DNA of 64,000 nt from Alphaproteobacteria bacterium (GCA_021776235.1 JAJFGG010000013.1:1-64000), one strand, 5' to 3'; positions 30,802 to 64,000 are shown, numbered from the stretch's first letter. Translations and numbers: made by a program. The notes: generated by a model not told the origin, from the sequence alone.

Positions 30802-30821
30802 AAACATTCGGGAGCGAGGCT

Positions 30822-36338: not shown

Positions 36339-36342
36339 ACCG

Positions 36343-37050: not shown

Positions 37051-37075
37051 GGCGAAGCTCGATGCGGCAATGGGA

Positions 37076-37261
37076 CTAGTGGCAGGGCACCGCGATGCCG
37101 TGGCGGGAATCATGGGCCGCATTGTGGATCATCGACGGATGGGAAAACGCAACACCAATGAACAGCGCCAACCCCAACAAGGCGGCAAGGCTCGCCGGCA
37201 AAACCTGAGCGGTTCGCGCTTGTACGGCGGCGGTATGATCGGCAACTTTTGTCTGCGCCAT
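37076..37261 (-). CDS. cbtB: Cobalt transporter subunit CbtB
   Basis: A 61-residue protein with one membrane helix (about residues 21-40) and the CbtB C-terminal signature HDSRHGIAVPCH, which carries conserved His and Cys residues thought to bind metal. It lies immediately upstream of cbtA, as is usual, and has a good ribosome site (AAGGAGAACG) before its ATG. Confidence 0.88.
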   Translation of the reverse strand: MAQTKVADHTAAVQARTAQVLPASLAALLGLALFIGVAFSHPSMIHNAAHDSRHGIAVPCH

Positions 37262-38932: not shown

Positions 38933-40218
38933 TGTTCCGCCCGCCCTGAAATAGGCGGGCCGCTTCCCAAACGTCCCCGCGCCACCTTTGCCAGTTCCGC
39001 CATCACTTCGCCGGTTACCTCGCTGCCGCTGCTGGCGCGCACATGGCTTTCGGCCCGCTGGCGGACAAAGCGGCGGATGAAAGAGGGAATGCGGGCCAGC
39101 CACGCTTCGGCTTCTGGCGTCCATGAGAGCGCCTCCGCATCATCGCCACAGGACGCACCAAGAGGTTGGATCACCGGGCCTCCTTTGGGTTCATAGGCGC
39201 AAAGGAAATCCTCGCCCATAAGCTGGCCGTCACGGGCCAACGGCCGGGCCCGGCAGCCGCCGCAGATCTTGCCGTACTCGCAAACGCCGCAACGCCCCTG
39301 CAAAACCGGTTGGCGCAACGCCTTGAACTGCGGTGCGTCCCGCCAGATGTCGGCAAAGCCGTTGTCACGGACGGAGCCGACCTCTTCCTCGATGTACGGG
39401 CAGGCGGTGACACCGCCCGTAGGCGTAATCCGGCAATAGCGGGTGCCGGCCAGGCAGCCGCCGGCCTCATAACCATGCGCACTGGTAATAGGCCAGTCCG
39501 GGTCCAGTTCCCAGGCCATGCGCTTGAAATGGGGCGCGCATTTGGCCCGGATCATGATCTCCGTCTCCTGCCGAGAGGCTTCCGTCAGCCGCCGCATGAC
39601 CCGTTCGTAGGTGTCGACCGAGATGTTCGTTACCTTTTCGCCACGGCCCGTGCAGACGAGAAAAAAGACGTTCAGGACAAACGCGCCGACGTCGCGGGCA
39701 AAGGCGATCATATCGTCAAGTTCATGGGCATTGTCGTCGGTGACCGAAAAATGGATCTGAAAGCGCAGGCCGTTCCGGCGGCAGGCATCGAAGGCCGCCA
39801 TGGCCTGTGCCCACGAACCCGGCAACCCGCGAAATTCGTCGTGGCGGGCGGCATCCAGGGAATCCAGACTGATGCCGGCGCCCATTAGCCCGGCCGCCTG
39901 CAGGGCAGCGGCGCGGCGGTCGTTAAGGCCTAGGCCGTTGCTGCCCAGGACCGCCATCAGGCCGAGGCCGGCGGCATGGGTAACCAGTTCCGTCAGGTCA
40001 GCCCGTAACAACGGTTCGCCACCGGTGAACACGACCATGGTCTCGTCACTAAGGGCGGCAATATCGTCCAGCAGCGCCATGACCTCCGCCGTGGTCAACT
40101 CACCCGAATTGTCGCTTTCGCGGGTCCCGGCATCGAGGTAGCAGTGCGCGCAATTCAGGTTGCAGCGGCGGGTCAGGTTCAGGGCAACCAGAAAGGGCGG
40201 GCTGAGCGTGTCTGCCAT
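38929..40218 (-). CDS. Radical-SAM/SPASM protein with C-terminal PCP_red domain
   Basis: A 429-residue protein. Cys19, Cys23 and Cys26 (RCNLNCAHC) bind the SAM [4Fe-4S] cluster. The SPASM region has CPYIEEEVG and CGVCEYGKICGGCRA for auxiliary clusters, as in the NirJ/AhbD family that trims side chains of haem precursors. The last 70 residues (SWTPEAEAWLARIPSFIRRF) match the PCP_red domain repeated in the neighbouring UspA gene. It probably modifies a tetrapyrrole for the cytochromes. It sits in the run usp-radical SAM-hemY. Confidence 0.82.
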   Translation of the reverse strand: MADTLSPPFLVALNLTRRCNLNCAHCYLDAGTRESDNSGELTTAEVMALLDDIAALSDETMVVFTGGEPLLRADLTELVTHAAGLGLMAVLGSNGLGLNDRRAAALQAAGLMGAGISLDSLDAARHDEFRGLPGSWAQAMAAFDACRRNGLRFQIHFSVTDDNAHELDDMIAFARDVGAFVLNVFFLVCTGRGEKVTNISVDTYERVMRRLTEASRQETEIMIRAKCAPHFKRMAWELDPDWPITSAHGYEAGGCLAGTRYCRITPTGGVTACPYIEEEVGSVRDNGFADIWRDAPQFKALRQPVLQGRCGVCEYGKICGGCRARPLARDGQLMGEDFLCAYEPKGGPVIQPLGASCGDDAEALSWTPEAEAWLARIPSFIRRFVRQRAESHVRASSGSEVTGEVMAELAKVARGRLGSGPPISGRAEQ

Positions 40219-42357: not shown

Positions 42358-42439
42358 TTCTCTGCTTTCACTACCGGTGGATTCCTGAATTTCGCACCAG
42401 CAGGGTCTGTCAGAAGCTAAGCAGCCGCATTGACATCCA

Positions 42440-42667
42440 TCAAGCTGCGCCCTGGCGCCGGATGGCACCGATCAGGCACAATAATAGCCCTCCTATGAGC
42501 AGCATCGCGTGAAACGGAGCAACCTCGAATCCGCCACGCCACGACAGCATAATGTCCAAGGTGCCGAGAATGACCAGAATAACGCCGAACAGCCGGATGA
42601 TGGCGCCGCGGCTGGTGTTGTTACCGCTTTCCGCAGTCTCTTCGGTTTCCTCCATCTCGGCCTTCAT
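42440..42667 (-). CDS. Small two-helix membrane protein
   Basis: A 75-residue protein with a charged N-terminus (MKAEMEETEETAESG) and two hydrophobic helices, IIRLFGVILVILGTLDIML and FHAMLLIGGLLLCLIGAI. The ATG at 42667 overlaps the upstream cytochrome stop (ATGA), so it belongs to module A. A longer frame to 42946 would lie inside the cytochrome gene and is rejected. It is probably an accessory subunit of the membrane complex; no family recognised. Confidence 0.6.
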   Translation of the reverse strand: MKAEMEETEETAESGNNTSRGAIIRLFGVILVILGTLDIMLSWRGGFEVAPFHAMLLIGGLLLCLIGAIRRQGAA

Positions 42668-44229
42668 GATGCCCGGCCCGCGTTTCGGGCCGCCGCGCCA
42701 CGGCCCCACCAGAGCAGAATGCCGCCGATCAAAAACACGGCGATCAAGGCGCTGATTGCCGGTTTCGCGCCCGCGGTGGGCTTCAGCAAAAGCCAGTACC
42801 AGGTCGTCATGCCGTGGCTGGTTCCGCTCTCGCTGTTGGAACCGTCCCAGGCAAAAAAGGCAATGGGGATGAATTGCCCCTCCTCGAACTGCAGATCCCT
42901 GTCCACGGTTTCGGTGCGGAGCGGCCTGGTCATCACGACCCGCCAAGTACCGGCCTTATAGCTGCCCTTGGCCGCGACTGAGGTGGCCGCGGCGTCGCGT
43001 GCCTCTTGCGCCGCAATCCCCGTTGCATCAAGCATGGTGATGCGTTCCGGCGCCTCCGTGGTGCCACTGGACCAGCGCCACAGATTGACCGGTTTGGCCG
43101 CATCACCCATGAGGAAATAGGGTTTTTCCATGCCCCGGGGGATGGTCATCGGGAACTGGACGGCAATGGCGTCTTCGCTGAGTTCCGCATCGGCAATGCT
43201 TCGCGCCTTGTCATCGCCGGGGATGCTTCTGGTCCGGTCGTCCCATTCAAGATGAATGGCAATCTGCTTGTCATTGTAAAGGGCGCGGACGCTGACCGTG
43301 TCGTTGGCGGTCGTGAAGAAACGCGACTTGCCGACGATCTGTGGCACCATGAAGAAGGTCGATGGCGGTGCTGTCTTCCAGACGGGATCGTCCGGAGCGG
43401 CAGGTAATTCTCCCTCGACGCGGGCGGCCTGGATGACCGTATTCTCGGGCCGTACCACCATCTCCGTCTTAGCCAGGGCGGCGACATAGTTTGCGACATG
43501 CCAGCGCTCTTCGATGCTGAGCTTCTTTGAACTTTTTGGATCAGCAAAGGACGGCATCTGGGTTGTCGGAATGCCGGCTGAAATTCGGGCAAAGATATCT
43601 TTCGGGTCATTGCTGGCGCGGAACGTCCAGGGTTTGGTCAGATTTCGCGGCCAGGTACGCTCGCCATTGTCGTTTTTCAGCTTCTTGATGGCATCGCCTT
43701 TGCCGGTCTCGCCATGGCATTCCGAGCAGCGGTCGTCGGCATGGAACAGTTTGTCGCCGGCAGCAATGCTTTCCGGCGAGGTTTGCACCCGGGTGCCGTA
43801 GTCCACCTGTCCTTCGGGCGTCCCCTCCAATTCGGCGAAGCTTTTGATATAGGCAATAACGTCCCGGATTTCCTGTTCCGACAGCAGATCGCTCCAGCCG
43901 GGCATGGCCGTGCCGGGCATGCCGTCGCGGACCATGCGAAACAGATCCTCGTCGTTGGGCAGATCCGCATCAAAGGCCGAGGACTTGATCTTGTAGAGAC
44001 CAAGCGTGAAGTCACGGGGCGGCGGGTTCAGTCGTTCGGCCGCCGGGCCCAGGCCGTCGCCCTCATCGCCGTGGCACTGCAGGCAGCGTTTGATATAGAC
44101 CGTTTCGCCTTTTTCGGCGTCACCGTTCTGCGCCGCGGATTGCGCGCTGACCGGGCCGGAACAGAGCGCCAGCAGACCGGCCGCAATGGCTGGGGCAAGA
44201 ATCCGTTTCATCAAACCGCCCGCCATCAT
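42664..44229 (-). CDS. Di-haem cytochrome c with ethylbenzene-dehydrogenase-type haem domain (module A)
   Basis: A 521-residue exported protein: signal peptide (KRILAPAIAAGLLALCSGPVSAQ), cytochrome c domain 1 (CLQCHGDEGDG), domain 2 (CSECHGETGKGD), then an EB_dh-like domain of about 200 residues (FEEGQFIPIAFFAWDGSNSE) of the kind that binds haem b in the gamma subunit of type II DMSO-reductase enzymes and in NxrC, and a C-terminal membrane helix. It shuttles electrons in the periplasm. It is a paralogue of the protein at 49300-50958. It overlaps the gene before it; ATG 44211 is an alternative start. Confidence 0.87.
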   Translation of the reverse strand: MMAGGLMKRILAPAIAAGLLALCSGPVSAQSAAQNGDAEKGETVYIKRCLQCHGDEGDGLGPAAERLNPPPRDFTLGLYKIKSSAFDADLPNDEDLFRMVRDGMPGTAMPGWSDLLSEQEIRDVIAYIKSFAELEGTPEGQVDYGTRVQTSPESIAAGDKLFHADDRCSECHGETGKGDAIKKLKNDNGERTWPRNLTKPWTFRASNDPKDIFARISAGIPTTQMPSFADPKSSKKLSIEERWHVANYVAALAKTEMVVRPENTVIQAARVEGELPAAPDDPVWKTAPPSTFFMVPQIVGKSRFFTTANDTVSVRALYNDKQIAIHLEWDDRTRSIPGDDKARSIADAELSEDAIAVQFPMTIPRGMEKPYFLMGDAAKPVNLWRWSSGTTEAPERITMLDATGIAAQEARDAAATSVAAKGSYKAGTWRVVMTRPLRTETVDRDLQFEEGQFIPIAFFAWDGSNSESGTSHGMTTWYWLLLKPTAGAKPAISALIAVFLIGGILLWWGRGAAARNAGRAS

Positions 44230-44993
44230 TCGTGCTCCCAGGATCGCGGCCGATGACCCGTATAGTCATAGAGATACAGGATTACCTGCCAGACCTCGTC
44301 TTCCGTGAGGAAGTCCTGCCACACCGGCATGGAAGAAATCCAGGGTGCGGCCTCCTTCGGCAGACCCGGGCCACCGGTGGTGATGCGCCAGAACAAATAG
44401 GATTCCTGCAGTTGCGCGATGGTACCTACGTCCTGGAAGTTCAGCGGCGTCGGGTTCAGGCCATCGGCGTAAGGCCCCTGGCCGTCAAGCTTGTCGCCAT
44501 GGCAGTACTGGCAGTTCCGGATATAGACGGCGGCACCCTCGTTGACCAGTTCGCGGAACTGCTCCGGGTCTTCCTTTTCGAGCTTTCTAAACGGGTTCTC
44601 CAACTGCAACAGGTTGACCCGCTTGCCATAAATTTTCGCCGTGGTGGGCGGTGCCGGATGGATGGTGCGCAGTTCCAGGGGCGCCTCGAAACCAGGCTGC
44701 ATCTGCATATAGGTGGCCCCGCCCACTGCCAGCGGAACGATGGCGAAGACGAGGTTGCGCCAAAGCCGCTTCGCGGGGTCTTCCACCAGGGCCTTTATTG
44801 GGGCCACCAGCTCGCGTGTCTGGTCCTCGTCGTAGGTAAAGACCATGAAGACGCCGGCGGTGACGAAGAACATGTACATGACGAGCAGGCTGGCAGGAAT
44901 AACCGCTTCCAGAATGACATCGAAGACGACGACAAACCCGAAATAGACCCCGGCCAGAACCAATGCGGCCTGTAGCAATCTGGGTATCTTCAT
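44226..44993 (-). CDS. Membrane-anchored mono-haem cytochrome c (module A)
   Basis: About 255 residues. Three hydrophobic segments fill the first 100 residues (LLQAALVLAGVYFGFVVVF; LLVMYMFFVTAGVFMVFTY; NLVFAIVPLAVGGATY). A single cytochrome c domain follows: NCQYCHGDKLDGQGPYADGL, with the distal-side segment SSMPVWQDFLTEDEVW. The ATG at 44993 has a good ribosome site (GAGGGGGC); a GTG sits two codons upstream. Paralogue of the 50958-51923 gene and in the same place in its module. Probably connects the CydA-like subunit to soluble cytochromes. Confidence 0.87.
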   Translation of the reverse strand: MKIPRLLQAALVLAGVYFGFVVVFDVILEAVIPASLLVMYMFFVTAGVFMVFTYDEDQTRELVAPIKALVEDPAKRLWRNLVFAIVPLAVGGATYMQMQPGFEAPLELRTIHPAPPTTAKIYGKRVNLLQLENPFRKLEKEDPEQFRELVNEGAAVYIRNCQYCHGDKLDGQGPYADGLNPTPLNFQDVGTIAQLQESYLFWRITTGGPGLPKEAAPWISSMPVWQDFLTEDEVWQVILYLYDYTGHRPRSWEHE

Positions 44994-45006
44994 TGCCACC
45001 GCCCCC

Positions 45007-45834
45007 TCACTTCAACCCGGCCAGGTAGTCCAGCAGGAGTTCCAGTTCCGCAACGTAAATCTGTTCACCGATATCCGCCGGCATCAGATCCGCCTCATAG
45101 CCCTTGGCCAGATCGGCATTGGGATCGAGCAGCGCCCGGCGGAGATAGGCCCGATCGCGGCCGGCGCCGATCCTGGACAGGTTTGGCCCGACCTCGCCGC
45201 CCTCGCCGCCCTCGCCGTTGATCATATGGCAGGCGTCACAGGTGAATTTAGCCAGCAAATCCTTGGGGTCGTCGATGGCGTCACGGGCCTCGGGTTCCTC
45301 CTCCTCGTCATCGCCGCCGCCCTGCCCGGCGTCCTCGGGAATCTCGACCGTAACCTCGGCGCCGCCTTTATCCTGAAGGTAGGCGACGACCGCCGCGACC
45401 TCGGCCTCGTTCAGGCTGATCCCGCCGGCGGCGACGTTCGGCATGGGACTTTCCGCATCGTTGGTACCCTTCTTGCCGAAACCGGCGACCACAAAGGCCG
45501 ATGGCTGGACCAGGGATTCGATCAGATAGCTCTCGACATCCTCGGCCTCTCCCTTGTACCGGGGGTCTTTCAGGCGTTCCGGCACGGCAGCCGCGGTGGT
45601 GTCCAACAAAGGCGCGCGGCCAAGCTCGTTATGACACAGGGTGCAGGTACCCTTGCCATTGTAGATCCGCTCACCCAGGAGGATGAATTGATCCATGGTC
45701 ATGGCGCTAAGATCCAGTTTTTCTTCCTTCGGCGGCGGCGCCGGCTCGATCTGCGGTATGCCGTAGTTGGAATAAGCCGAGAAGAAGCCAATGGTCAGCA
45801 GGGCAAAGGCAACGACGGTAAGGAATTGCCGCAT
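45007..45834 (-). CDS. Membrane-anchored di-haem cytochrome c (module A)
   Basis: A 275-residue protein: an N-terminal helix (FLTVVAFALLTIGFFSAY), cytochrome c domain 1 (GTCTLCHNELGRAP), a linker with a highly acidic run (GGGDDEEEEPEARD), and domain 2 (FTCDACHMINGEGGEGGEVG). Both haem sites look intact. It starts 6 bp after the CydA-like gene. This intact copy shows what the interrupted gene at 51986-52969 should encode. Confidence 0.88.
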   Translation of the reverse strand: MRQFLTVVAFALLTIGFFSAYSNYGIPQIEPAPPPKEEKLDLSAMTMDQFILLGERIYNGKGTCTLCHNELGRAPLLDTTAAAVPERLKDPRYKGEAEDVESYLIESLVQPSAFVVAGFGKKGTNDAESPMPNVAAGGISLNEAEVAAVVAYLQDKGGAEVTVEIPEDAGQGGGDDEEEEPEARDAIDDPKDLLAKFTCDACHMINGEGGEGGEVGPNLSRIGAGRDRAYLRRALLDPNADLAKGYEADLMPADIGEQIYVAELELLLDYLAGLK

Positions 45835-45840
45835 GGCCGC

Positions 45841-47661
45841 CTACCCCTTCCAGTACCCGGCCGGCAGCGTCTTGCTGCCGCTGACCTGGGCGATCCAGAA
45901 GACGAAGATAACCATCGCCATGAACAGAATGGCGGCAACCGAGACCACGTTCGCCGCATAACCCAGAGTCGGCGTGAAGGCGTCCGGCGAGGCATCACGC
46001 ATGATGTCAAGCACGTGCCAATGCTGGCGAATGCCGGAGCGGATATACCCCATCAAGCCCATCAGCCAGGTGAAGGAGACGGCCAACAGGAACAGGGCAT
46101 ACTGGGCCCGGCCTGGTATCCGGCCCCAATGCAACGGCCCAACCTCCTTGGCGCCACGGTAGATGAAGGAATCCAGGGTAATACTGCCCACGATCACGGC
46201 CACGGTGGTCAACACCTGGGGGATCGACGCCGCGACCTTGTAAACCGTATTGGTGAAATAGCCGTGATAGATGCCAAGAAACATGATGTTGGCGATACCG
46301 GTCGTGAACAGCGCCACTTGTATGGCGTTGCCGGCATTCACCCAGGATACGGTGGCGACCTTGTTGGCCCGCCGGTAGAACATGAAACTCAGGGCCGTGA
46401 AGATAATCATCACATTCACTGCCGTATTCTTGGCCGGCATGATGCCCAGGGGACCAAGAATTTTGTGGTGCGGCCCGCCCAGTGCCTTCAACTCCTCATT
46501 GGTCAGCACCAGGGTATGGGGCGTAAACCAGACCAGAAAAGCGCCGATCAGGACGATGGCGATGTACTTGATATACTTGGTATAACGCTTGGCCCCGTCA
46601 CTGCGCCCCATGCCGCACCAGAGGTAATAGTTGGCGGAAAGGAACAGCGTGCCGATTAGCACCGCCTGAATGATGAACAGCCAGGCAAAAATCCCGCCCA
46701 TGAGAGTAATGCCCATTTGCTGGCTGTAGGCATAAATCTCCGCGGCCAGATAGTATCCGGCGAAGGGCAGCGGCAGCAGCGCGCAAATGGCGATGAAGTT
46801 GGCATTGTAGCCCATCCAGTCATAGTGGGCCTTCTCCTGATTGCCGGTCGCGGTCAGGAATTTGAAAGCGGCGTAGGCGCCGACGATGGAGCCGCCATAG
46901 GCAATATTGGCGACGAAGCGGTGGATGTTGATGGGGTTCCAGAGGAAATTATGGATGGCGGCCCAGGCATCGCCACTGAAGACACCGGCCGCGTCCACGC
47001 CGGCGGGGCTCATCATGAAGGTCAGCCAGGCGTTGGCCAGCAGCATCAGGGTCGTGCCGACGGCATTGAGAATCAGGCCAAGGCTCAAATGAACCCATTT
47101 CTTGAAGCCGCCCTGCAGCCAATGCCAGCCATAATAATAGACGTAGAGAACGGCGCTTTCGGCGAAAAACAGCAGCGCATAATAGAACATGCTGGCGCTG
47201 AAAATGGTTGAGAGATAGGTGAACAGATGGGGATAGAACAGGATCAACGAGAACAACAGCCCCCCGCCCAGAATGGCGGTCAGAGAATAGGCGGTAATGG
47301 CGACCTTGATGAATTCATAGGCCATATCGTCATATCGTTTATCCCGGGTGCGCATGCCGATGACTTCGATAATGAAAACGAAGATCGGCACGGCCAGGAC
47401 AAAGGCGGCGAACCACAGGTGAAGCTGGGCGAAGATCCAGACCGCGACCCGGCTGTTGATGCCGGCGATGGTGGGGTAATCGGCAGCGGTGAGTTTTGGT
47501 GCCGGGGCGTAAGAACCGGCAGCCACGCCGTCAGCCGCCGCAGGTTCGGCGGCAAGAGCATCAACGGGGCCAAAGGCAAGTAGGAAAACCGCGGCAAGGG
47601 CGACGACGAAGGCAATCATTGCCGACGCCGGGCCACGTTGGGTGGGATGAGGGTCTTTCAT
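45841..47661 (-). CDS. CydA-like membrane subunit (bd-oxidase family), module A
   Basis: About 606 residues with some 14 hydrophobic segments, against about 520 residues for ordinary CydA. A cleavable-looking N-terminus ends in DALAAEP. His81 in FAQLHLWFAAF and the His of INIHRFVANIAYGG lie where CydA haem ligands are found; SGIRQHWHVLDIMRD near the end resembles a degenerate GRQPW quinol-loop motif. FMMSPAGVDA and HYDWMGY are shared with the second copy. No cydB is present. It probably oxidises quinol or reduces O2 together with the following cytochromes. ATG 47661 has a better ribosome site than 47679. Confidence 0.82.
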   Translation of the reverse strand: MKDPHPTQRGPASAMIAFVVALAAVFLLAFGPVDALAAEPAAADGVAAGSYAPAPKLTAADYPTIAGINSRVAVWIFAQLHLWFAAFVLAVPIFVFIIEVIGMRTRDKRYDDMAYEFIKVAITAYSLTAILGGGLLFSLILFYPHLFTYLSTIFSASMFYYALLFFAESAVLYVYYYGWHWLQGGFKKWVHLSLGLILNAVGTTLMLLANAWLTFMMSPAGVDAAGVFSGDAWAAIHNFLWNPINIHRFVANIAYGGSIVGAYAAFKFLTATGNQEKAHYDWMGYNANFIAICALLPLPFAGYYLAAEIYAYSQQMGITLMGGIFAWLFIIQAVLIGTLFLSANYYLWCGMGRSDGAKRYTKYIKYIAIVLIGAFLVWFTPHTLVLTNEELKALGGPHHKILGPLGIMPAKNTAVNVMIIFTALSFMFYRRANKVATVSWVNAGNAIQVALFTTGIANIMFLGIYHGYFTNTVYKVAASIPQVLTTVAVIVGSITLDSFIYRGAKEVGPLHWGRIPGRAQYALFLLAVSFTWLMGLMGYIRSGIRQHWHVLDIMRDASPDAFTPTLGYAANVVSVAAILFMAMVIFVFWIAQVSGSKTLPAGYWKG

Positions 47662-47682
47662 AGTGACTCGGTTCCTCATCCA

Positions 47683-47805
47683 TTATTGGTGAAAAATCAG
47701 ACCCAGGCCTTGCATATTCATCACCGCTGTATCGAGCAGCAGGAAGGCCGCGGTAAAAACCACCAGGCCGGCGACAAAGGGCAGAAAATAGCCTTTCACA
47801 CTCAT
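47683..47805 (-). CDS. 40-residue membrane peptide preceding CydA-like gene A
   Basis: A short gene with a very strong ribosome site (GGGAGGAGA) before ATG 47805: MSVKGYFLPFVAGLVVFTAAF then a polar end, a single membrane helix. It ends 21 bp before the CydA-like start. Its size and place recall CydX/CydY subunits that stabilise bd oxidases, though the sequence does not match CydX. Confidence 0.65.
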   Translation of the reverse strand: MSVKGYFLPFVAGLVVFTAAFLLLDTAVMNMQGLGLIFHQ

Positions 47806-47837
47806 GCTTTTTGTCTCCTCCCGTCCTCGGTCCATGC

Positions 47838-47951
47838 CTAGGCCTGGACAAACCACCAGAAGAACGCCGCCAGCAGGACAAACACGACGATGAACAGAGC
47901 CGGCCCGGCCCACGGGTAACGTTCTACTTGATCCGCGTCTTTGGTCATCAT
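47838..47951 (-). CDS. 37-residue membrane peptide, CydX-sized
   Basis: From ATG 47951 the frame reads MMTKDADQVERYPWAGPALF, then a single hydrophobic helix ending FFWWFVQA and TAG at 47838-47840. It is immediately upstream of the other small peptide and the CydA-like gene, on the same strand. A short charged N-terminus with one helix is the layout of small respiratory-oxidase subunits. Too short for homology; supported by hydrophobic pattern, context and clean start/stop. Confidence 0.55.
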   Translation of the reverse strand: MMTKDADQVERYPWAGPALFIVVFVLLAAFFWWFVQA

Positions 47952-48047
47952 TCGGCCACCTGTACGGCCATACATAGCGGCACGATAATCCGCCGAACTT
48001 GATCCCGATCAATGAGTGAAGAGCCCGACCTCGAATAGGCTGCCGCC

Positions 48048-48149
48048 ATGACACACCCCAGAAAACGCCTCGCCGACGCTGTCATCTTTATGGGCATGGC
48101 CGTCAACGTCGTCGTCATTGCGCTGATCCTCTATTTCTACGTCTTCTAG
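48048..48149 (+). CDS. 33-residue membrane peptide on the opposite strand
   Basis: ATG 48048 opens MTHPRKRLADAVIFMGMAVN, continuing as a hydrophobic helix ending ILYFYVF and TAG 48147-48149. A basic N-terminus with one helix is a sensible membrane peptide. It lies in the gap between the two modules and is the only plus-strand candidate in 26 kb. No clear ribosome site; an even shorter frame (ATG 48012, eight codons) precedes it. It could be chance. Confidence 0.35.
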   Translation: MTHPRKRLADAVIFMGMAVNVVVIALILYFYVF

Positions 48150-48173
48150 GGATCCGCATAGACCCTGACGGCC

Positions 48174-48572
48174 CTATCCCTGTTTCCCTTTGCATTTGCA
48201 GATGCCGCGCAGGTGCTTGACCAGCCCGTCGACTTGCTCGGCGGTCAAGGTCTTGCTCCAGGGCGGCATCATGGGTGATTTGCTGACCGACGGACCGCCG
48301 TCCAAGATGACGTTCTTCAGATCCGCATCGGAAAGCTTGTCCATCTCTTTGGCATTGGTAAAATTGCGCGGGCTAACGGGGAAATCCTTGGTGACGTTGG
48401 GGCCATCGCCCTTACCCGTCAGGCCATGGCATTGGGCGCAATAGAATTTGAAGACCTTTTCCGGGTCTGAGGCAAAGGCCGGAGCCGCGGAAAATAGCGC
48501 AACCAGGACTGTAAAGACAACGATTGCCAGAACTTCTTTCAAACCGCGTTCATTCATGCTTGGCTGTTTCAT
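48174..48572 (-). CDS. Small mono-haem cytochrome c
   Basis: A 132-residue exported cytochrome: signal peptide (EVLAIVVFTVLVALFSAAPAFA), haem site FYCAQCHGLTGKGDGPN, and the axial Met probably in SPMMPPWSKTL. The C-terminal CKCKGKQG has two extra cysteines that do not form a haem motif. It is the last gene of module B, following the di-haem cytochrome at 48588. Probably a soluble electron shuttle. Confidence 0.85.
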   Translation of the reverse strand: MKQPSMNERGLKEVLAIVVFTVLVALFSAAPAFASDPEKVFKFYCAQCHGLTGKGDGPNVTKDFPVSPRNFTNAKEMDKLSDADLKNVILDGGPSVSKSPMMPPWSKTLTAEQVDGLVKHLRGICKCKGKQG

Positions 48573-48587
48573 GATCGATGTCCTCCC

Positions 48588-49265
48588 CTATTTCTTTTTC
48601 TTCGGTTTGAAATTGGCGACATAGCGGGCGACATTCAGCATGTCCTTATCGCTCAACAGGCCGGCGAAAACCGGCATCATCTTCACCGGCTTGAACACCT
48701 TGGGCTTCTGCAGATAGGCAAGAATCCAATCGGGATTAAGACGTAGCCCCGCTTCGACCAGAGACGGACCGCTGCGCCCGCCGGAGAGCTTTTTCTTGCG
48801 CCCCAGGTATTGGTGGCAGCCGCTGCACGGCATCTTCTTGGTGAAAATCTGCCGGCCTTTGGGATTTTTCTTTGGCTTCACTTTACCTGCCGCAACCTCC
48901 GTCGAGGTCAGGCCCATAAGAAAATCGGTCACCGCGGCCACATCCCCGCCTGCCAATTTCGGATGACCGCCGGTGTTCTCCTGCATCAGATTGTTGAACT
49001 TCATGGGCCGGATCGGTTTTGGATCGGCCAGCCACTTGCCCAGCCAGTCCTTCTGAAATTTGGAACCGGCATACCAAAGCTCGGGCCCTTTCTTGGCCAG
49101 TTGATCATCGATGGTTTTTTCCCTGGCCGGTCCCTCGGTGTAATGGCAGCCGCCACAGCCTTTCGCCTCGAAAACATCCTTGCCGGCGGCTGCGCCGGCC
49201 GGATTGGACGACGCCGCGCCGAGCAACAAGGCCGCGCTGAATATTGCTGTAATTGAGAGTCTCAT
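48588..49265 (-). CDS. Di-haem cytochrome c
   Basis: About 225 residues. Signal peptide MRLSITAIFSAALLLGAASS, haem 1 GCGGCHYTEGPAREKT, haem 2 PCSGCHQYLGRKKK, and a very basic C-terminus (FKPKKKK). The ATG at 49265 is set by a strong ribosome site (GGAGGAAAG); the frame extends to 49331 without one. Follows the EB_dh-type cytochrome of module B by 34 bp. The basic surface suggests docking to acidic partners, such as the acidic linker of the other di-haem protein. Confidence 0.85.
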   Translation of the reverse strand: MRLSITAIFSAALLLGAASSNPAGAAAGKDVFEAKGCGGCHYTEGPAREKTIDDQLAKKGPELWYAGSKFQKDWLGKWLADPKPIRPMKFNNLMQENTGGHPKLAGGDVAAVTDFLMGLTSTEVAAGKVKPKKNPKGRQIFTKKMPCSGCHQYLGRKKKLSGGRSGPSLVEAGLRLNPDWILAYLQKPKVFKPVKMMPVFAGLLSDKDMLNVARYVANFKPKKKK

Positions 49266-49299
49266 CACATTCTTTCCTCCAATTTTCCCCCCGGTGGGT

Positions 49300-50958
49300 T
49301 CAGACACCCGCTTCAACCGGCTCCTCTTCATTCTCGGCTTTTCGCATCAGCCAAATTCCCACCGCGCCGGCAATCAGAAAGGCCAGGACGGCGTAGACGT
49401 AGACGCTGATCGGTGTCGGCGTCTCCAGGAATACATAATGCCAGGTGCTGAGGCTCATAATCAGCCCATGTTCACCGTTGGAGCCATCCCAGGCGTTGAC
49501 GGACATGGGCACGAACACGCCCGGTTCGAACGCCACGTCGTTCTTGTCGCCGGTTTTCAATGGCCGTTTCATGACCACGGTCCAGCGTCCCTGATCCCAC
49601 TTCGCCTGGCCCATGACCTGCTGGCCGTCTTCGGCCTGAACCTTGATGGGCTGTTTCCAACCCCGCGCGGTGCCTTCTTCCGTGCCCCGTTTGCCGGTTT
49701 CGGCCTGGTCCGCTTTCCAGACCCAAAGGTGGACCTGGTCGGAGGAGGAGCCACGGTAGAAGTGCGGCTTTTTGGTACCTTGGGGCGGTTTCACCGGGAA
49801 CTGCAGCGCAATGGAATCGCGGAACGTTTCCAGCGCGCGCGGCACCATGTCATTGGCTTCCACGTAGGAACTGAAGCCGCCGACCTTGGCAAGCTCATTG
49901 GGATTGAACACCTTGGTCTCGTCGTGCGCCACGTCCTTGAAAGCATCATCCCAGATCAGCCGGAAAGCGATTTCCTTGTCGTTGAACAGGGCCTGGAGGG
50001 TCACCATCTCGATGCTCGGGTTTTGCCAGCGGGGTGCGGCCACAACCTGACCTGCCAGGCGTATGTCCATGGGTTGGGCGGTATTCCAGGCCTCGTCGTC
50101 GGGATTTTCCGGCAACGCGCCCTGGACCGGCTTTGCCCGAAGCGTCTGATGGCCGGTCAGTTGGTGTTGCAGAGACTTGATGTAATTGGCCAGATGCCAG
50201 CGGTCTTCCTCATTCAGGCTTTTTACGAATGACGGCATGGGTGTGCCGGAGATGCCGGAAGTGAAGCGCATATAGATATCCGCGACCTCGCCGCCCGCCT
50301 TGATCTTCCAGGGATGGGTGACGTTACGAATGCGGATGGGAAAACCCCAATCGTCTTTGCGAAATTCCTTGTTGCCATCGCCGCGGCCCAGCTTGCCGTG
50401 GCAACTCCAGCATTTGGCCTTTTCGAACACCGCCTCGCCCTTGGCAATGGTTTCGGGGCCATAGGGTGCTGGGCTGGCGGGCAGCGAGATCACCTTGCCG
50501 GTTTCTACCGGATCCAGTTCCGGATCATCGAACTCCTGGGCGAAGGTCTTGATATAGGCGATAACGGCCCAACGCTCATCCTCGCTAAGGCCGTTCTTGA
50601 ACAGGTCGCTGTCAAAAGACTGCATTGCCGTGCCCTGCAAACCCCGGCTGACGGTGCGGAACAAGTCCTCGTTGGTGGGCAATTCGCCGCTTTGCGTGGT
50701 CCGGAACTTGAAAGTGCCAAGGGTAAAGTCGCGCGGCCGGGGGTCCAGATACTTCGCCGCCGGCCCTTCGCCGTCACCCAACAAGCCATGGCAAAAGCTG
50801 CAGCGGCCAAAATAGATGTCACGGCCCTGCTCCAGCAGCGCCTCGGTCGCTTCGGGCATGGGTTTGCTGGGCACGTTGGCGGCCAGGGCCTGGCTTGAAA
50901 TCCAGACGGCGGCAAGCGCGGCACCGAAAGCGGTTGGAATCATTTTGCTGATCCGCAT
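49300..50958 (-). CDS. Di-haem cytochrome c with ethylbenzene-dehydrogenase-type haem domain (module B)
   Basis: A 552-residue exported protein with the same plan as 42664-44229: signal peptide, CSFCHGLLGDGEGP, CWSCHGKLGRGDG, an EB_dh-like domain (FEPGVFVPMSVNAWDGSNGE), and one C-terminal helix (VYAVLAFLIAGAVGIWLM). Shared phrases such as DLFRTVSRGLQGTAMQ / DLFRMVRDGMPGTAMP show the two genes are duplicates. Its ATG overlaps the upstream stop (TGATG). Role: periplasmic electron transfer with possible haem b. Confidence 0.87.
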   Translation of the reverse strand: MRISKMIPTAFGAALAAVWISSQALAANVPSKPMPEATEALLEQGRDIYFGRCSFCHGLLGDGEGPAAKYLDPRPRDFTLGTFKFRTTQSGELPTNEDLFRTVSRGLQGTAMQSFDSDLFKNGLSEDERWAVIAYIKTFAQEFDDPELDPVETGKVISLPASPAPYGPETIAKGEAVFEKAKCWSCHGKLGRGDGNKEFRKDDWGFPIRIRNVTHPWKIKAGGEVADIYMRFTSGISGTPMPSFVKSLNEEDRWHLANYIKSLQHQLTGHQTLRAKPVQGALPENPDDEAWNTAQPMDIRLAGQVVAAPRWQNPSIEMVTLQALFNDKEIAFRLIWDDAFKDVAHDETKVFNPNELAKVGGFSSYVEANDMVPRALETFRDSIALQFPVKPPQGTKKPHFYRGSSSDQVHLWVWKADQAETGKRGTEEGTARGWKQPIKVQAEDGQQVMGQAKWDQGRWTVVMKRPLKTGDKNDVAFEPGVFVPMSVNAWDGSNGEHGLIMSLSTWHYVFLETPTPISVYVYAVLAFLIAGAVGIWLMRKAENEEEPVEAGV

Positions 50959-51923
50959 CAGTGGCTCTCCGGGATGCGTGGCGTTTTCTGGGCCAGGTCG
51001 TACTCGGCCAGAATGATCTGCCAGCGTTGCGCTTCGGTCAGGCTAAGCTTCCATTCAGGCATCGCCGAATCCCAGGGCGTGGCCTCGGCCGGCAGGCCCG
51101 GACCGCCATTGGCGACGCGCCAGAAGGTATAACCCTCGACGATGGTTTCGATGGTGCCGTTGTCGGTGAAGTTGATGGGCCGAAGCTTGAAGCCGTCGGC
51201 CATGGGGCCATCTCCGGCAACGCTGTCGCCATGGCAGGCGCGGCAATTCATGGCATACAGGGCGCGGCCCTCGAACAGGTTCTTCTCCAGCAACGCCGCC
51301 CTGGCCGTGTCCTTGTCGACGTCACCGGATTGCAACTGGGCCAACAGTTTCTGCATGGCTGCGGTGGGGAAAAGCTCCAGCACGTGATCTGGATCTACTT
51401 CTTCGGCCCAGTTCTCCACGTCGTCACGGACCTGCGGAATAAAATCAACCTCGTTGGCCTTGGCCTGCTCGATGAAGGCATCAACGTCGGCCTCCGTCGG
51501 GTTGGCGATGGGGTTCTTTTTGGCCTCGAAGCTTTTCGGGAAATTCGACGATGGATGCTGGATCCGCAGGGACGAGGGTACTTCCATCTTGGGCACCGTA
51601 ATCTCGTAAACCTGCCAGCCGATCAGCGCGGGTATCGCCGTCAAAACCACCGCGCGAAGACTCTTGGTATAGCCGCCGCGCAGGAACTTCTTTACCGGTC
51701 TGAGGAAATCGTTGAGGCCCTCGTCCGAAAAGGTCACGAACAAGAACAGCGCGACGATCGTCAGCACCATATAAAAGAACATCAGGGTGCCGGGAACGGG
51801 CAACGGGAAGGGCAGTGTGGTCACTTCGCGGGAGAGGGCGGGAATGCCCCATTTCACAAGGGCATAGACGACCACAAGGGTCAACACCACCGACAGGAAA
51901 CTACCAACTCTTGGTTTCTTCAT
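50958..51923 (-). CDS. Membrane-anchored mono-haem cytochrome c (module B)
   Basis: A 321-residue protein. Hydrophobic segments near residues 8-25, 40-63 and 90-110, then a periplasmic part with one haem site, NCRACHGDSVAGDGPMADGF, and DSAMPEWKLSLTEAQRWQ, parallel to the module A protein. It is about 65 residues longer because of a helical insert before the haem domain (EEVDPDHVLELFPTAAMQKL). It follows the interrupted di-haem gene by 62 bp. Confidence 0.87.
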   Translation of the reverse strand: MKKPRVGSFLSVVLTLVVVYALVKWGIPALSREVTTLPFPLPVPGTLMFFYMVLTIVALFLFVTFSDEGLNDFLRPVKKFLRGGYTKSLRAVVLTAIPALIGWQVYEITVPKMEVPSSLRIQHPSSNFPKSFEAKKNPIANPTEADVDAFIEQAKANEVDFIPQVRDDVENWAEEVDPDHVLELFPTAAMQKLLAQLQSGDVDKDTARAALLEKNLFEGRALYAMNCRACHGDSVAGDGPMADGFKLRPINFTDNGTIETIVEGYTFWRVANGGPGLPAEATPWDSAMPEWKLSLTEAQRWQIILAEYDLAQKTPRIPESH

Positions 51924-51985
51924 GATCGGTCGCCCCGATTGCCCGTCATTGCGTTTGCCATGCCTCTACCCATCGAAATGCCCAC

Positions 51986-52969
51986 CTACTGCACCGGCTT
52001 CGGCTTTTGCAACATCAGGAAGGACAGGATGTCCTGGTAGTCCTTGACCGTCATCGCCTCTGACAGATCATCCGGCATGACACTTTTGGTATCATCGATC
52101 CTGATCTCCTTGATCTCGTCCTTGGCAATGGTGACCACGTCGCCATTGGCCTTTGTGATGTCGACCTCGCCGGCCTCGTCGCGGGTTTTCAGTCCCACCG
52201 TCTGGCGGCCTTCCTTGTTAATGGCGACATAGGTCTCGAAGCCCTTGGTCAGAACCTTCGCCGGTTGCAGGATGGCTTCCGAGATAAACTTCAAGCCCTT
52301 GGCGCTAATGCCCGCCAGATCGGGACCGACCTCGCCGCCCTCGCCGTCCAGGCTGTGGCAATCCACGCAATTGTCTTCAAAGACCGTGGCACCCAGGCCT
52401 GGGTCGCCGCCGCCCGCCGCCGCCGCCGCCGAGATCTTGCCATAGAAACTTTGGGTCATCTCACTTGGCTTGGTGTCGATCGCCTCCATATCAAGATCGC
52501 CGCCCAGGGACATCAGATAGGCGGTCACGGCCTTGATCTCCACAAGACTCAACGAGATCGGCGGTGCGTACACCACGGCCATCTCGTTCTAGTAGCCCTT
52601 CACCACATAGGCACCGGGGCTGGCCAGGCTTTCGACGACGTAATCAACAGCGGTGAATTCGACGCCTTCCTTCTCTGCCCGCTCCCTGGCCCGTTCCACC
52701 GCCCGCGCACCCATGGACAAGGGGAACTTTTCCCCGAACTGGCCATGGTTGGGGCCGCGCACGGCGCTGCCCTGGCCGCCGACACTGTGGCAGGTGAAAC
52801 ATCGGCCCTTGCCCCAATAGATGGCTTCGCCGCCCTCCGGGCTAATATCGACGGCCGCGCTACTCTTGCGCCCGCCGCCCGTAAGTTCGGTTATGGAGTA
52901 GCCAATCCACAGGTAAACCCCCAGCACGACCAGCAGAAACGGGAAGATCCGGGTTATGGTCACGTTCAC
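51986..52969 (-). pseudogene. Di-haem cytochrome c interrupted by an in-frame TAG (module B)
   Basis: The N-terminal half (GTG 52969 after AGGAGG, membrane helix, haem GRCFTCHSVGGQG) ends ...GAYVVKGY at TAG 52589-52591. Reading straight on in the same frame gives NEMAVVYAPPISLSLVEIKA and then a second haem site, NCVDCHSLDGEGGEVGPD, to 51986. The intact paralogue at 45007-45834 is continuous here. A single base change (for example GAG to TAG) explains it. The second half alone would lack an export signal. Alternatives: sequencing error, or stop-codon readthrough. Confidence 0.85.
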
Positions 52970-52973
52970 GGTT

Positions 52974-55145
52974 TCAGTCCTCCTGCTTCTTGGAGGAGAT
53001 ACCGCCGAGCCAGAACATGAAGGCACAGCCGATCATGAATAGCAGCACGGCGGCGCCAACCTGCTGGGTCATGACAAAATTACTGGGCGTGTAGGCCCAA
53101 TCAGAGGTGTCGCGCATGATGCCGAAGATGTGCCAATCGCCGCGCAGCCCGGAGCGGATAAAGCCCATAAGCCCCATGTTCATGGTGATCACAAAGGTCA
53201 GCAGCAACAGCGCGTATTGCGAGCGCACGGTCATCTTGCCCCATTGCATCCCGCCCAGGGACTTGGCCCGTTTGAACAGGAAAGCATCGATGACGGCGAC
53301 CAGAACCAGGCAGCTTATCAGTTGCAGGAACTGCGAAACAGCGACGTTTCGCAACACCGGCGACGCCTTTTCCATGACCACGAAACCATACACGCCCAGG
53401 AATATGGTCACGTTGAAGGCCGTAACAGCCAGATAGATGGCCTGCCCCAACTTGCCCCGGTCGGTCAGCGCCAGGATGATAGCGACAATGCCAATAAGGC
53501 ATTCGAAAACCAGAACGTAACCGATCATGCGGATGAACTCGGCCCGGTCCGCCGGCAGATCGAGTTCGGCCGGATCCATCTGCAACATGGTCACCGCGTA
53601 CTGCGCCACCAGGGCAATGGCCACCCCACCGACGATCAATATGGTGATCCGCGCGCCTTTGCCTTGGGCGCGGATGGAGACCGCGTCTTCCATGTTGCCC
53701 CGGCGGTACAACAGGAACGAGAAGAAGGTCGCCAGGATAATCAGATTGACCACCGCGTTCTTGGCCGGCATCAGGCCCAGATACTTCAGCATCGGGTGAT
53801 ACTGGCTGCCGGCCATTTCGCCGACCTCCTGGCTGGTCAGAGGCAGATTGTGCGGCGTCAGCCAGATCGCGAAGGAAACGATCAGGGCAAACAATATGTA
53901 CTTGATAAATTTGTAGTAGCGTTCGGCCCCGGGAATCCGGGTCATGCCGCTCCACAGATAATAATTGGAAATCACGAACAGCGAACCCACCAGCATGGCC
54001 TGGATGATAAAGGTCCACGAGAAATCGCCGCCCATCATGTTGTTGCCCATGACGGCGGACGTTGAATAGACCTCGCGGCCCAGGTAATAGCCGGCGAAGG
54101 GCAGCGGGATCAGCGCCGCGATGGCGACGAAATTGGAAATATAGCCCATCCAATCGTAATGGGCCTTTTCCTCGGCCGTCTTGGCGCCGATGAACTTGAC
54201 GGCGGCGTAGGCGCCGGCGACCAGTCCGCCGAATGCCAGGTTGCCGAGCATGCGGTGAATGGCGATGGGGGTGGCCAGGATGTTCTCGAACGCCTCCCAG
54301 ACGGTGCCGACAAGGACGCCGTCCGCATCGACGCCGGCGGGGCTCATCATGAAGCCGGCCCAGGAGTTGGCCAGTTGCATGATGGCGGTGCCGAAGACAT
54401 TGAGAAGAATGCCGATAAAGATGTGCGAAGACTTCCGGTCGCGGATGATCCAGAAACCGACCGCCAGGGGCAAAATGTAAAGCAACAGGATGAACCAGCG
54501 CGTATCAACCCGCATCGCCGGGCCGATGGCGCCGAGTAGAAGGGCCAGGCCAAAAGCCGCGATGACAAGGCTGATGCCCTTGAACAGCCATTGCATCTTG
54601 GTTGAAAAAAGACCGCCGCCCTTCAGCCAGTTCCAGCCGTAATAGTACATATACAGCGCAAAGGTCTCGCCGAAGAACAACAGGGCATAGAGGAACATGA
54701 TATCCTTGAAAATACCGGCCATGTAGCCCATGAAGGTCGGGTACAGGGTAAACAGGGCGAAGGCGAGAAGGCCGCCCAGAGCCGCTGTCGTTGCATAGGC
54801 GACACTCAGCAACGAGGTGAACTCATAGGCCAGATTGTCGAATTTCGGGTCCTTGTTGTTCCAGCCGACGACCTCGATGATCACCGCGAACAGCGGCACG
54901 CCAAGCACGAAGGCGCCAAAGAACAGATGCATCTGCGCCAGGAACCAGATCAACCGCCTGGAATCGATCCCCATGAACTGGCGATAGACATTCTCTTCCA
55001 GGGCGAAGGCGGGGGACGCGGCGACGGCCAGGCCTAGCACCAGCAAACTGGCAAGACAGAGTCTTGGGAACCGGCCCGGATTTGCTCCAGAGCCGAAGAT
55101 ACCGCTGGATTGCCTCTGTCCCATGGTCCGATTCCCAGTCTTCAT
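52974..55145 (-). CDS. CydA-like membrane subunit (bd-oxidase family), module B
   Basis: A 723-residue membrane protein, about 110 residues longer than the module A copy. After a signal-like N-terminus (LASLLVLGLAVAASPAFALE) come His73 in FLAQMHLFFGAF, FMMSPAGVDADGV, IAIHRMLGNLAFGG, HYDWMGY, MPAKNAVVN, and SGLRGDWHIFGIMRD near the end. The extra length is mostly additional membrane segments in the middle. No cydB or copper-site subunit is nearby. An alternative start is the ATG at 55124. It leads module B; the di-haem cytochrome start follows 4 bp after its stop. Confidence 0.82.
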   Translation of the reverse strand: MKTGNRTMGQRQSSGIFGSGANPGRFPRLCLASLLVLGLAVAASPAFALEENVYRQFMGIDSRRLIWFLAQMHLFFGAFVLGVPLFAVIIEVVGWNNKDPKFDNLAYEFTSLLSVAYATTAALGGLLAFALFTLYPTFMGYMAGIFKDIMFLYALLFFGETFALYMYYYGWNWLKGGGLFSTKMQWLFKGISLVIAAFGLALLLGAIGPAMRVDTRWFILLLYILPLAVGFWIIRDRKSSHIFIGILLNVFGTAIMQLANSWAGFMMSPAGVDADGVLVGTVWEAFENILATPIAIHRMLGNLAFGGLVAGAYAAVKFIGAKTAEEKAHYDWMGYISNFVAIAALIPLPFAGYYLGREVYSTSAVMGNNMMGGDFSWTFIIQAMLVGSLFVISNYYLWSGMTRIPGAERYYKFIKYILFALIVSFAIWLTPHNLPLTSQEVGEMAGSQYHPMLKYLGLMPAKNAVVNLIILATFFSFLLYRRGNMEDAVSIRAQGKGARITILIVGGVAIALVAQYAVTMLQMDPAELDLPADRAEFIRMIGYVLVFECLIGIVAIILALTDRGKLGQAIYLAVTAFNVTIFLGVYGFVVMEKASPVLRNVAVSQFLQLISCLVLVAVIDAFLFKRAKSLGGMQWGKMTVRSQYALLLLTFVITMNMGLMGFIRSGLRGDWHIFGIMRDTSDWAYTPSNFVMTQQVGAAVLLFMIGCAFMFWLGGISSKKQED

Positions 55146-55178: not shown

Positions 55179-55973
55179 TTATTTGCCGTCGGAGAACGCG
55201 AAATTCGACTCCACCGCGCCCTTGGCGGCTACGGTGATCTTGGTTTTCTTGACGCCGAAACGGGGATGCCAGGCTTTCAAGGTGTATTTACCCGGCGGAA
55301 TGTTGTCGATGGAAAAGCCGCCGTCATCGCCGACCACCACGGCATAGGGATGGGTCGGCGCCAGGATGTAGCCGAACATGAAGTTGTGGGCCTCGCAGTT
55401 GATGCCGATATAGGAAGAGCGCCGCGGCTTTATCTTGTCGGAAATATCGCCGGGGTCCGGCTGGCCGAAATTGAACAACGTCTTCTTCACGACGCGGCCC
55501 TTTTCAACGCCGATCAGTTCGCGGGCGTTGATATTGTGCAAGACACCGGCATCGCTGTTGCGGATAATGAAGGGGCCAGGCCTGACCACCTGGGCCCAGG
55601 GCCGAAAACGGCAGCCCTTTTGGTCAACCAGATAATTTCCGAACTGCGGCTTGGCCCACTTCTTGCCCTTCTTGATCTTGTCGAGGAAAACAAACGTACC
55701 CCGTAGCGCGCCGTCTTTGACGTCCACCCAGACGATCTCGCGTTCGCCGGTGCCGCAAACATCCGTATTCTTGGTGATCAGAATTTTTTCGATGGCGTCG
55801 GCAGGCACCGCACCCTCGAAACTTACCTTGCCCTTGACCATACCGCCATCGGTGACGCCGGTTTCCTTGTACTTGCCGCGCTTGGCTGCGTCCACCGGCG
55901 CCGCCAGGCTCAGCATGGCAATCGAAACGCATGCACCGAGCGTCAAACCGGTAAATATTTTGCTGGCATTCAT
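55179..55973 (-). CDS. Periplasmic cupredoxin-like / carboxypeptidase-regulatory-like protein
   Basis: A 264-residue exported protein (signal peptide ends APVDAA). The middle part is cupredoxin-like: His146 (GVLHNINA), Cys193, His196 and Met199 (INCEAHNFMFG) form a plausible type 1 copper set with a compact C-x2-H-x2-M loop. The C-terminal 60 residues (DDGGFSIDNIPPGKYTLKAW) form a beta-sandwich of the carboxypeptidase-regulatory type. It may be an electron carrier or substrate-binding protein between the molybdoenzyme and module B. Metal binding is unproven. Confidence 0.72.
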   Translation of the reverse strand: MNASKIFTGLTLGACVSIAMLSLAAPVDAAKRGKYKETGVTDGGMVKGKVSFEGAVPADAIEKILITKNTDVCGTGEREIVWVDVKDGALRGTFVFLDKIKKGKKWAKPQFGNYLVDQKGCRFRPWAQVVRPGPFIIRNSDAGVLHNINARELIGVEKGRVVKKTLFNFGQPDPGDISDKIKPRRSSYIGINCEAHNFMFGYILAPTHPYAVVVGDDGGFSIDNIPPGKYTLKAWHPRFGVKKTKITVAAKGAVESNFAFSDGK

Positions 55974-61038: not shown

Positions 61039-61051
61039 CGCTGTTGTCTCC

Positions 61052-63931: not shown

Positions 63932-64000
63932 CGCTAAACCTCTCAAAAGGTACGGCTGCACTGAAAATATGCTCTCCGGAACTCTTCCAGCTTTTGGTCA

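Follow-up and report, generated by a model that had tools for sequence, protein, structure and literature searches.

Paired CydB-less bd-like cytochrome modules beside an iodate-reductase-type operon in a marine alphaproteobacterium

Introduction

What is the function of two CydA-like genes that are each followed by three genes for c-type cytochromes, that have no CydB partner and that lie next to a molybdoenzyme operon? The arrangement occurs in a stretch of 64,000 nucleotides from a marine alphaproteobacterium (Alphaproteobacteria bacterium, GCA_021776235.1 JAJFGG010000013.1:1-64000; the assembly comprises 174 contigs), the whole of which is referred to here as the window. An earlier note on this DNA had proposed an undescribed membrane complex, tandemly duplicated, in which a bd-type core is joined to a periplasmic haem wire. 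Our preferred reading, to which we assign a probability of roughly 45%, is a cytochrome c-linked, CydB-less bd-like reductase of the OR-N/CydAA' kind, which would share a pool of high-potential carriers with a neighbouring enzyme of iodate reductase (Idr) type.

Results and discussion

Organization of the two modules

Eight genes form two runs of identical order, all on the minus strand: a CydA-like protein, a di-haem cytochrome c, a membrane mono-haem cytochrome c and a di-haem cytochrome c with an EB_dh domain. They were found where the earlier note had placed them, with the Pfam families PF01654 and PF09459 matched above their cut-offs. Two gene ends needed adjustment: CydA-like copy 1 extends to 47679 rather than 47661, and mono-haem c copy 1 to 44999 rather than 44993, its start being the GTG at 44999 or a few codons inward. 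The modules and the genes between them are as follows.

42664..44229, minus: di-haem c with EB_dh domain and C-terminal helix, copy 1 (alt-NxrC type); PF09459, E 1.6e-26
44226..44999, minus: membrane mono-haem c, copy 1; one CXXCH, PF13442
45007..45834, minus: di-haem c, copy 1, Kustd1711 homologue; two CXXCH, PDB 7zs0 at E 1e-18
45841..47679, minus: CydA-like copy 1 (CydA1), 14 helices counting the N-terminal one; PF01654, E 5e-17
47683..47805, minus: single-helix open reading frame of 40 residues, candidate CydX-like small subunit; no Pfam match
48174..48572, minus: mono-haem c between the modules; one CXXCH, present in 19/31 fully flanked loci
48588..49331, minus: di-haem c between the modules; two CXXCH, present in 16/31 fully flanked loci
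49300..50958, minus: di-haem c with EB_dh domain, copy 2; PF09459, E 1.5e-22, separate ancient clade
50958..51923, minus: membrane mono-haem c, copy 2; one CXXCH
51986..52969, minus: di-haem c, copy 2, with an in-frame TAG; uninterrupted in six relatives
52974..55145, minus: CydA-like copy 2 (CydA2); PF01654, E 4e-9, clade apart from CydA1 with 100/100 support

The count of 17 CXXCH motifs given previously is exact for the cluster 42664-63961, against an expectation of 0.025 in shuffled protein. The functional neighbourhood is broader than the span first drawn and runs from 37544 to 63961.

The CydA-like core

CydA1 and CydA2 are the only PF01654 proteins in the whole genome. There is no CydB within the cluster, as had been noted, and no further PF01654 protein in the genome; PF02322 was not searched for genome-wide. 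The AlphaFold model of CydA1, computed with 52 sequences, has 14 long helices (predicted local distance difference test, pLDDT, 86; predicted template modelling score, pTM, 0.85). When the model was used in a fold search, ten chains of cytochrome bd subunit I were the only PDB matches at E <0.001, which bears out the idea of a bd-type core lacking CydB.

Local profile comparison, with E. coli CydA and one relative as the canonical set, aligns CydA1 residues 76-279 with E. coli CydA 8-212 at 97% probability. His87, His197, His253 and Glu174 of CydA1 correspond to His19, His126, His186 and Glu107 of the E. coli protein, and these positions are kept in both the CydA1 and the CydA2 families. His87, His197, His253, His388, His405 and His555 vary little or not at all across 88 CydA1 sequences, and 24 CydA2 sequences conserve these positions as well. 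A loss of all haem-ligand positions, named in the earlier note as the finding that would undo its proposal, was thus not observed, since the equivalents of His19, His186 and Glu107 are present. The Q-loop and the C-terminal half gave no detectable alignment to canonical CydA in the profile comparison, although the absence of an alignment does not prove the absence of a quinol site. The bd-like proteins of Nitrospina are likewise reported to have 14 helices and to lack all of the canonical CydA quinol-binding residues (PMC3578206).

In comparison with canonical CydAB, the overall fold, the alignable N-terminal half and the residues equivalent to His19, His186 and Glu107 are shared. The proteins described here differ in having 14 helices rather than nine, a tyrosine in place of Glu99, a C-terminal half without detectable sequence similarity, c-type cytochromes attached and no CydB in the cluster. 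On this last ground we rejected canonical CydAB.

The cytochromes and a small conserved gene

Di-haem c copy 1 is homologous over about 200 residues to Kustd1711 (PDB 7zs0, E 1e-18), a di-haem c from the anammox nxr cluster whose haems were measured at about +350 mV (PMC11791136). This potential and the calcium sites are properties of the protein from the anammox organism. The EB_dh protein of copy 1 matches PDB 6h5l_B at E 6e-40 and also the gamma subunit of ethylbenzene dehydrogenase (2ivf_C) and NxrC (7b04_C). We take the first of these to be the electron-transferring subunit of an HAO-like complex from anammox bacteria. A third EB_dh protein, in a frame of 310 residues, lies elsewhere in the genome (G000:C3:19797-20438; L195).

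Di-haem c copy 2 is interrupted by an in-frame TAG after KGY, near window position 52590. Because six relatives have a sense codon there, the TAG is either a nonsense mutation confined to this genome or an error of its many-contig assembly; recoding of TAG was rejected as unneeded.

Overlooked in the earlier note was a 40-residue open reading frame 3 bp upstream of CydA1. Homologues carrying the motif LD..M..QGL lie directly upstream of CydA1 at about 75 loci in all of the lineages sampled, including Nitrospirota of the Nitrospira type. No Pfam family matched it. It belongs to the module and is a candidate CydX-like small subunit.

The adjoining molybdoenzyme

The molybdoenzyme beside the modules had been noticed previously, its type not having been identified. 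It belongs to the following group of genes.

55179..55973, minus: periplasmic cupredoxin with a regulatory-like domain; copper motif in 31/31 sequences, model pLDDT 87
55989..58262, minus: HEAT-repeat protein, conserved beside Idr and the module; PF13646, E 1e-51
58366..61080, minus: IdrA-type molybdoenzyme catalytic subunit; TIGR02693 over cut-off, Idr-like clade 100/100
61052..61639, minus: IdrB-type Rieske subunit; TIGR02694, E 5e-34
61654..62811, minus: di-haem MauG/CCP-type peroxidase (IdrP type); PF03150, E 1e-41
62822..63961, minus: second di-haem MauG/CCP-type peroxidase (IdrP type); PF03150, E 2e-37

In a maximum-likelihood tree, which lacked the Pseudomonas SCT and Denitromonas IR-12 type sequences, the catalytic subunit forms a clade of 100/100 support together with its counterparts from Vibrio THAF190c, Azonexus hydrophilus NCP973 and Thiothrix subterranea, and five AioA sequences stand apart. 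It is 67% identical to the Vibrio THAF190c protein and 49% identical to that of A. hydrophilus NCP973, and the order peroxidase-peroxidase-Rieske-catalytic subunit is the same as on the A. hydrophilus NCP973 plasmid. Two peroxidases occur in all idrA-clade neighbourhoods and not in those of AioA (Reyes-Umana et al., PMC8692401). Given the clade and a gene content with two peroxidases, the enzyme is assigned to the iodate reductase type (P2-P1-IdrB-IdrA), an assignment made from sequence comparison. All four genes of the idrABP1P2 cluster are represented; the differences are that the window enzyme belongs to a distinct subclade and has bd-like modules, a HEAT protein and a cupredoxin alongside. 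With AioAB it shares the enzyme family (TIGR02693/TIGR02694), at 29-32% identity. Arsenite oxidase was rejected in view of the separate clade, the peroxidases and the active-site-loop histidine (DH...EN), which is present in 5/5 AioA sequences and is missing from the window enzyme and all of its Idr-like relatives.

The copper motif of the cupredoxin (His146, Cys193-x2-His196-x2-Met199) is kept in 31/31 sequences. A sequence search of the PDB gave one weak match only; the identity was settled by the fold search, where amicyanin, pseudoazurin and other cupredoxins make up most of the matches. A divergent HEAT-like reading frame (L136:7028-9061) lies divergently beside the Idr operon of Vibrio THAF190c, with no CydA module nearby, and it may be Idr itself to which the HEAT protein is linked.

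Conservation and linkage across genomes

Scanning the contigs of named genomes identified at least 555 relatives; the analysis used the 80 best. Many of the relatives are assembled from metagenomes, so that contig ends hide linkages. Neighbours were counted in the 31 fully flanked loci, those with at least 9 kb on either side. The di-haem c, mono-haem c and EB_dh c genes accompany CydA1 in 31/31. The gene for a universal stress protein (USP) with PCP_red domains is present in 27, the radical SAM/PCP_red gene in 26, the HemY-like gene in 19 and a second CydA in 13. Idr genes are found in at least eight, a lower bound because in the alphaproteobacterial arrangement most Idr genes fall outside the 10 kb flank. 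The earlier note had allowed that the cytochromes might prove to belong to unrelated operons in relatives; they occupy the same operon from Alphaproteobacteria to Nitrospirota.

In the genus of the window organism the order is P2-P1-Rieske-molybdoenzyme-HEAT-cupredoxin-CydA2-di-haem-mono-haem-EB_dh-di-haem-mono-haem-CydA1-di-haem-mono-haem-EB_dh-USP/PCP_red-radical SAM/PCP_red-HemY-like. Within this genus the CydA module and IdrA are both present in seven genomes and both absent from four (Fisher p = 0.003). Among 61 relatives, eight have both, two the module only, one IdrA only and 50 neither (p = 1e-7, merely indicative since the genomes are related). Sulfur-oxidizing Gammaproteobacteria have just one CydA1 module, arranged differently with respect to the neighbouring Idr genes, and elsewhere the module occurs without Idr.

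Two further neighbourhoods were observed. In an Arenicellales genome without Idr, the genes directly downstream of a double module encode a NapC-type cytochrome, a di-haem c and a molybdopterin enzyme, together with proteins whose translations read as NapG- and NapH-like (L069:16266-21736). In Nitrosomonadales/Gallionellales, a NosZ-like beta-propeller and cupredoxin protein, followed by a mono-haem c, is encoded beside the CydA1 module (L080:15231-17150; L085:15288-17123).

Relationship to known systems

The module cannot be called undescribed. The same four-gene order has been published for Nitrospira (PMC6606698; PMC3578206), and CydB-less proteins of this sort form a published family, classed as OR-N CydAA', for which cytochrome c is proposed as the donor (PMC10839748; PMC12342949). 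In Nitrospira moscoviensis the genes accompanying bd-like_3 encode two c-type cytochromes and alt_NxrC_2, bd-like_4 is a tandem duplicate, and transcription is high (PMC6606698); the bd-like_3/alt_NxrC_2 arrangement is conserved in Nitrospina and anammox bacteria (PMC6606698; PMC3578206). We found the corresponding cluster in Nitrospirota genomes (L176, L177, L178, L183), which we infer to be of the Nitrospira type. There, two CydA1-like genes lie about 5.5 kb apart, one of them followed by di-haem c, mono-haem c and di-haem c with EB_dh, as in the window. The tandem CydA-likes, a PCP_red protein and a weak cupredoxin relative nearby are further points in common. The Nitrospira cluster lies beside the machinery of nitrite oxidation based on nitrite oxidoreductase (Nxr), whereas in the window that association is not found and the neighbour is an Idr-type enzyme. 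Each CydA-like gene here has a full cytochrome set. Both members of the Nitrospira-type pair are closer to CydA1.

The OR-N/CydAA' family of bd-like oxygen reductases was reportedly defined by Murali et al. in 2021. Shared with it are the CydA fold, the lack of CydB, co-encoded c-type cytochromes, a paralogous CydA pair and the absence of aligned canonical quinol residues; the Idr linkage and the small subunit do not appear in the accessible portions of the OR-N papers. What is new is the stable linkage of the module to an Idr operon, the cupredoxin, the conserved small gene and the PCP_red, radical-SAM and HemY-like genes.

Age of the two modules

Over aligned columns, copies 1 and 2 are 47% identical in CydA and 39%, 38% and 38% identical in the other proteins (alignment Z-scores 36-136). 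In a tree of 35 CydA-like proteins a long branch divides CydA1 from CydA2 with 100/100 support; each clade unites Pseudomonadota with deep-branching lineages of Nitrospirota or Nitrospinota. The CydA-like genes found in tandem in Nitrospirota genomes fall with CydA1, and the tree of the EB_dh proteins agrees with that of CydA. From these three features, the strongly supported clades, their multi-phylum membership and the congruent trees, the modules were probably duplicated as a block long ago and have been inherited side by side since. The tandem duplication proposed earlier therefore holds in that there are two real and related copies, but they are ancient paralogues that each group with their own orthologues across phyla. 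A recent tandem duplication was rejected.

A contig labelled 'Dehalococcoidia' (L093) carries an entire double module that nests among Arenicellales at high identity, indicating a recent transfer or a misbinned contig.

Putative tetrapyrrole-tailoring genes

Three genes downstream of the first module complete the neighbourhood.

37544..39124, minus: PPOX-like (HemY-like) flavin adenine dinucleotide protein, protoporphyrinogen-oxidase-like; PF01593, E 5e-57, true start likely near 38930
38929..40218, minus: radical SAM/SPASM protein (NirJ2/AhbD-like) fused to PCP_red; PF04055 and PF08369, TIGR04055/TIGR04545 best and below cut-off
40246..42468, minus: universal-stress-protein with four PCP_red domains; PF00582 and four PF08369 stretches, true start may be further downstream

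PCP_red takes its name from protochlorophyllide reductase. In this genome the domain is confined to two proteins, both of the cluster, and of 14 control genomes the cyanobacterium alone has it; the Nitrospirota cluster, too, comes with a PCP_red protein. Our literature search found no paper directly linking PCP_red with such clusters. The combination of PCP_red, a NirJ/AhbD-like radical SAM protein and a HemY-like protein suggests dedicated tetrapyrrole tailoring. A large cobalamin biosynthesis cluster (7392-27671 and 35325-37122; CobN-, CobQ-, CobL-, CbiD-, CobA-, CobB-like and others, by reading translations) lies about 10 kb from the PCP_red and radical-SAM genes.

Proposed mechanism and alternatives

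In the c-linked reductase that we favour, each module would contribute a 14-helix CydA-like core, a membrane mono-haem c, a Kustd1711-like di-haem c and an anchored, NxrC-like di-haem c with EB_dh. The ancient paralogues A and A' would most likely be parts of a single heteromeric complex or of two complexes that cooperate. The c-haems, the haem b of EB_dh and the cupredoxin would constitute a high-potential periplasmic carrier pool, from which electrons could pass to the haem pair of the CydA-like core, reducing O2 at low concentration, or to Idr, reducing iodate. The PCP_red, radical-SAM and HemY-like proteins would probably serve to synthesize a tailored tetrapyrrole for the complex or to insert it.

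Several observations weigh against this proposal. The equivalent of E. coli Glu99 is tyrosine in both CydA families, and the equivalents of Met393 and Glu445, the b558 methionine and b595 glutamate, are not conserved by inspection, in a region outside the profile alignment; an O2-reducing haem pair is therefore not assured. Four matches to haem-copper oxidases in the genome mean that a further oxidase is not obviously needed. Since Gammaproteobacteria and one distant alphaproteobacterium have Idr with the CydA1 module alone, A' is not obligatory, and in the present genome di-haem c copy 2 is interrupted. The CydA tree contains no named OR-N references. We know of no OR-N enzyme of this kind that has been purified. 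Their O2 activity is a published proposal (PMC10839748).

How the two modules assemble is a separate question that fits either mechanism. There is a substantial chance, a little short of even, that they form two independent specialized complexes, as the earlier note had it, for example one for O2 and one for the molybdoenzyme. Each module has a full set of three cytochromes, the CydA and EB_dh sets are each ancient clades and module 1 stands alone in many genomes, a second CydA occurring in only 13 of the fully flanked loci; in one betaproteobacterial genome the CydA2 module, with IdrA and HEAT, is on a different contig from module 1. However, CydA-type cores act as pseudo-dimers, OR-N1 and OR-N2 are proposed to pair as CydAA' (PMC10839748; PMC12342949), and most loci of Alpha- and Gammaproteobacteria with both modules have them side by side.

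The main competitor to O2 reduction is a quinone bridge, which we consider rather unlikely. The CydA-like core would carry a different quinone site and, in the manner of alternative complex III, link the quinone pool to the periplasmic haems and so feed Idr, the flow being reversed in nitrite oxidizers. Such a role was raised by Lucker et al. (PMC3578206), and the known idr cluster has no quinone oxidoreductase of its own (PMC8692401). The ligand changes in the core are consistent with it, as are the match of the di-haem part of EB_dh copy 1 to 6h5l_B and the diversity of partner enzymes, including Nxr in published work and, beside the module in other genomes, those of periplasmic nitrate reductase type and the NosZ-like propeller-cupredoxin. 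Against this, the canonical quinol-binding residues reported as missing in Nitrospina (PMC3578206) do not align here either, and a bc1 complex could serve instead.

It is improbable that the molybdoenzyme works as an oxidase of arsenite or iodide, as Nxr does for nitrite, with the bd-like complex as the O2-reducing end of a high-potential chemolithotrophy. The same membrane module is tied to nitrite oxidation in Nitrospira, Nitrospina and anammox bacteria (PMC3578206; PMC6606698; PMC11791136) and O2 reductases are present in the genome. Nevertheless, the enzyme falls in the Idr-type clade, is accompanied by the two peroxidases that mark Idr and lacks the AioA histidine loop, and iodide oxidation would need carriers far above the +350 mV of the Kustd1711 homologue, as estimated from standard potentials. 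A respiratory island in which Idr operon and modules stand side by side without being related is equally improbable: Idr operons without a module nearby (Vibrio THAF190c, Azonexus) and modules without Idr (Nitrospinota, deltaproteobacteria) occur, but joint gain or loss within the genus (7/7 versus 0/4) and adjacency in lineages of Alpha- and Gammaproteobacteria that are separate and differ in gene order argue otherwise.

We tentatively raise a wider possibility, which is doubtful as it stands. The module may be the dedicated membrane partner of the iodate-reductase-type enzyme and, more generally, a high-potential haem and copper hub that is plugged into Nxr, Idr and perhaps Nap or NosZ-like enzymes according to lineage. 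It might have its own CydX-like subunit and tetrapyrrole-tailoring genes, with a core that holds a modified haem not yet known.

The bd-like complexes of nitrite oxidizers are highly expressed, and few respiratory enzymes in the nitrogen cycle are as poorly understood; to our knowledge none of this kind has been purified. The presence of the module in ordinary Pseudomonadota, with a different enzyme, offers study hosts besides the slow-growing nitrifiers, and the conserved small gene and the PCP_red and radical-SAM genes provide testable handles on subunit make-up and cofactor. A true membrane partner of iodate reductase would fill the quinone oxidoreductase gap of the idr cluster (PMC8692401) and would bear on marine iodine cycling.

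Other features of the window

Amid the cobalamin genes, at 28216-32198, a CHAT-like TPR protein is followed by a lipase/acyltransferase-like protein, both recognized by reading.

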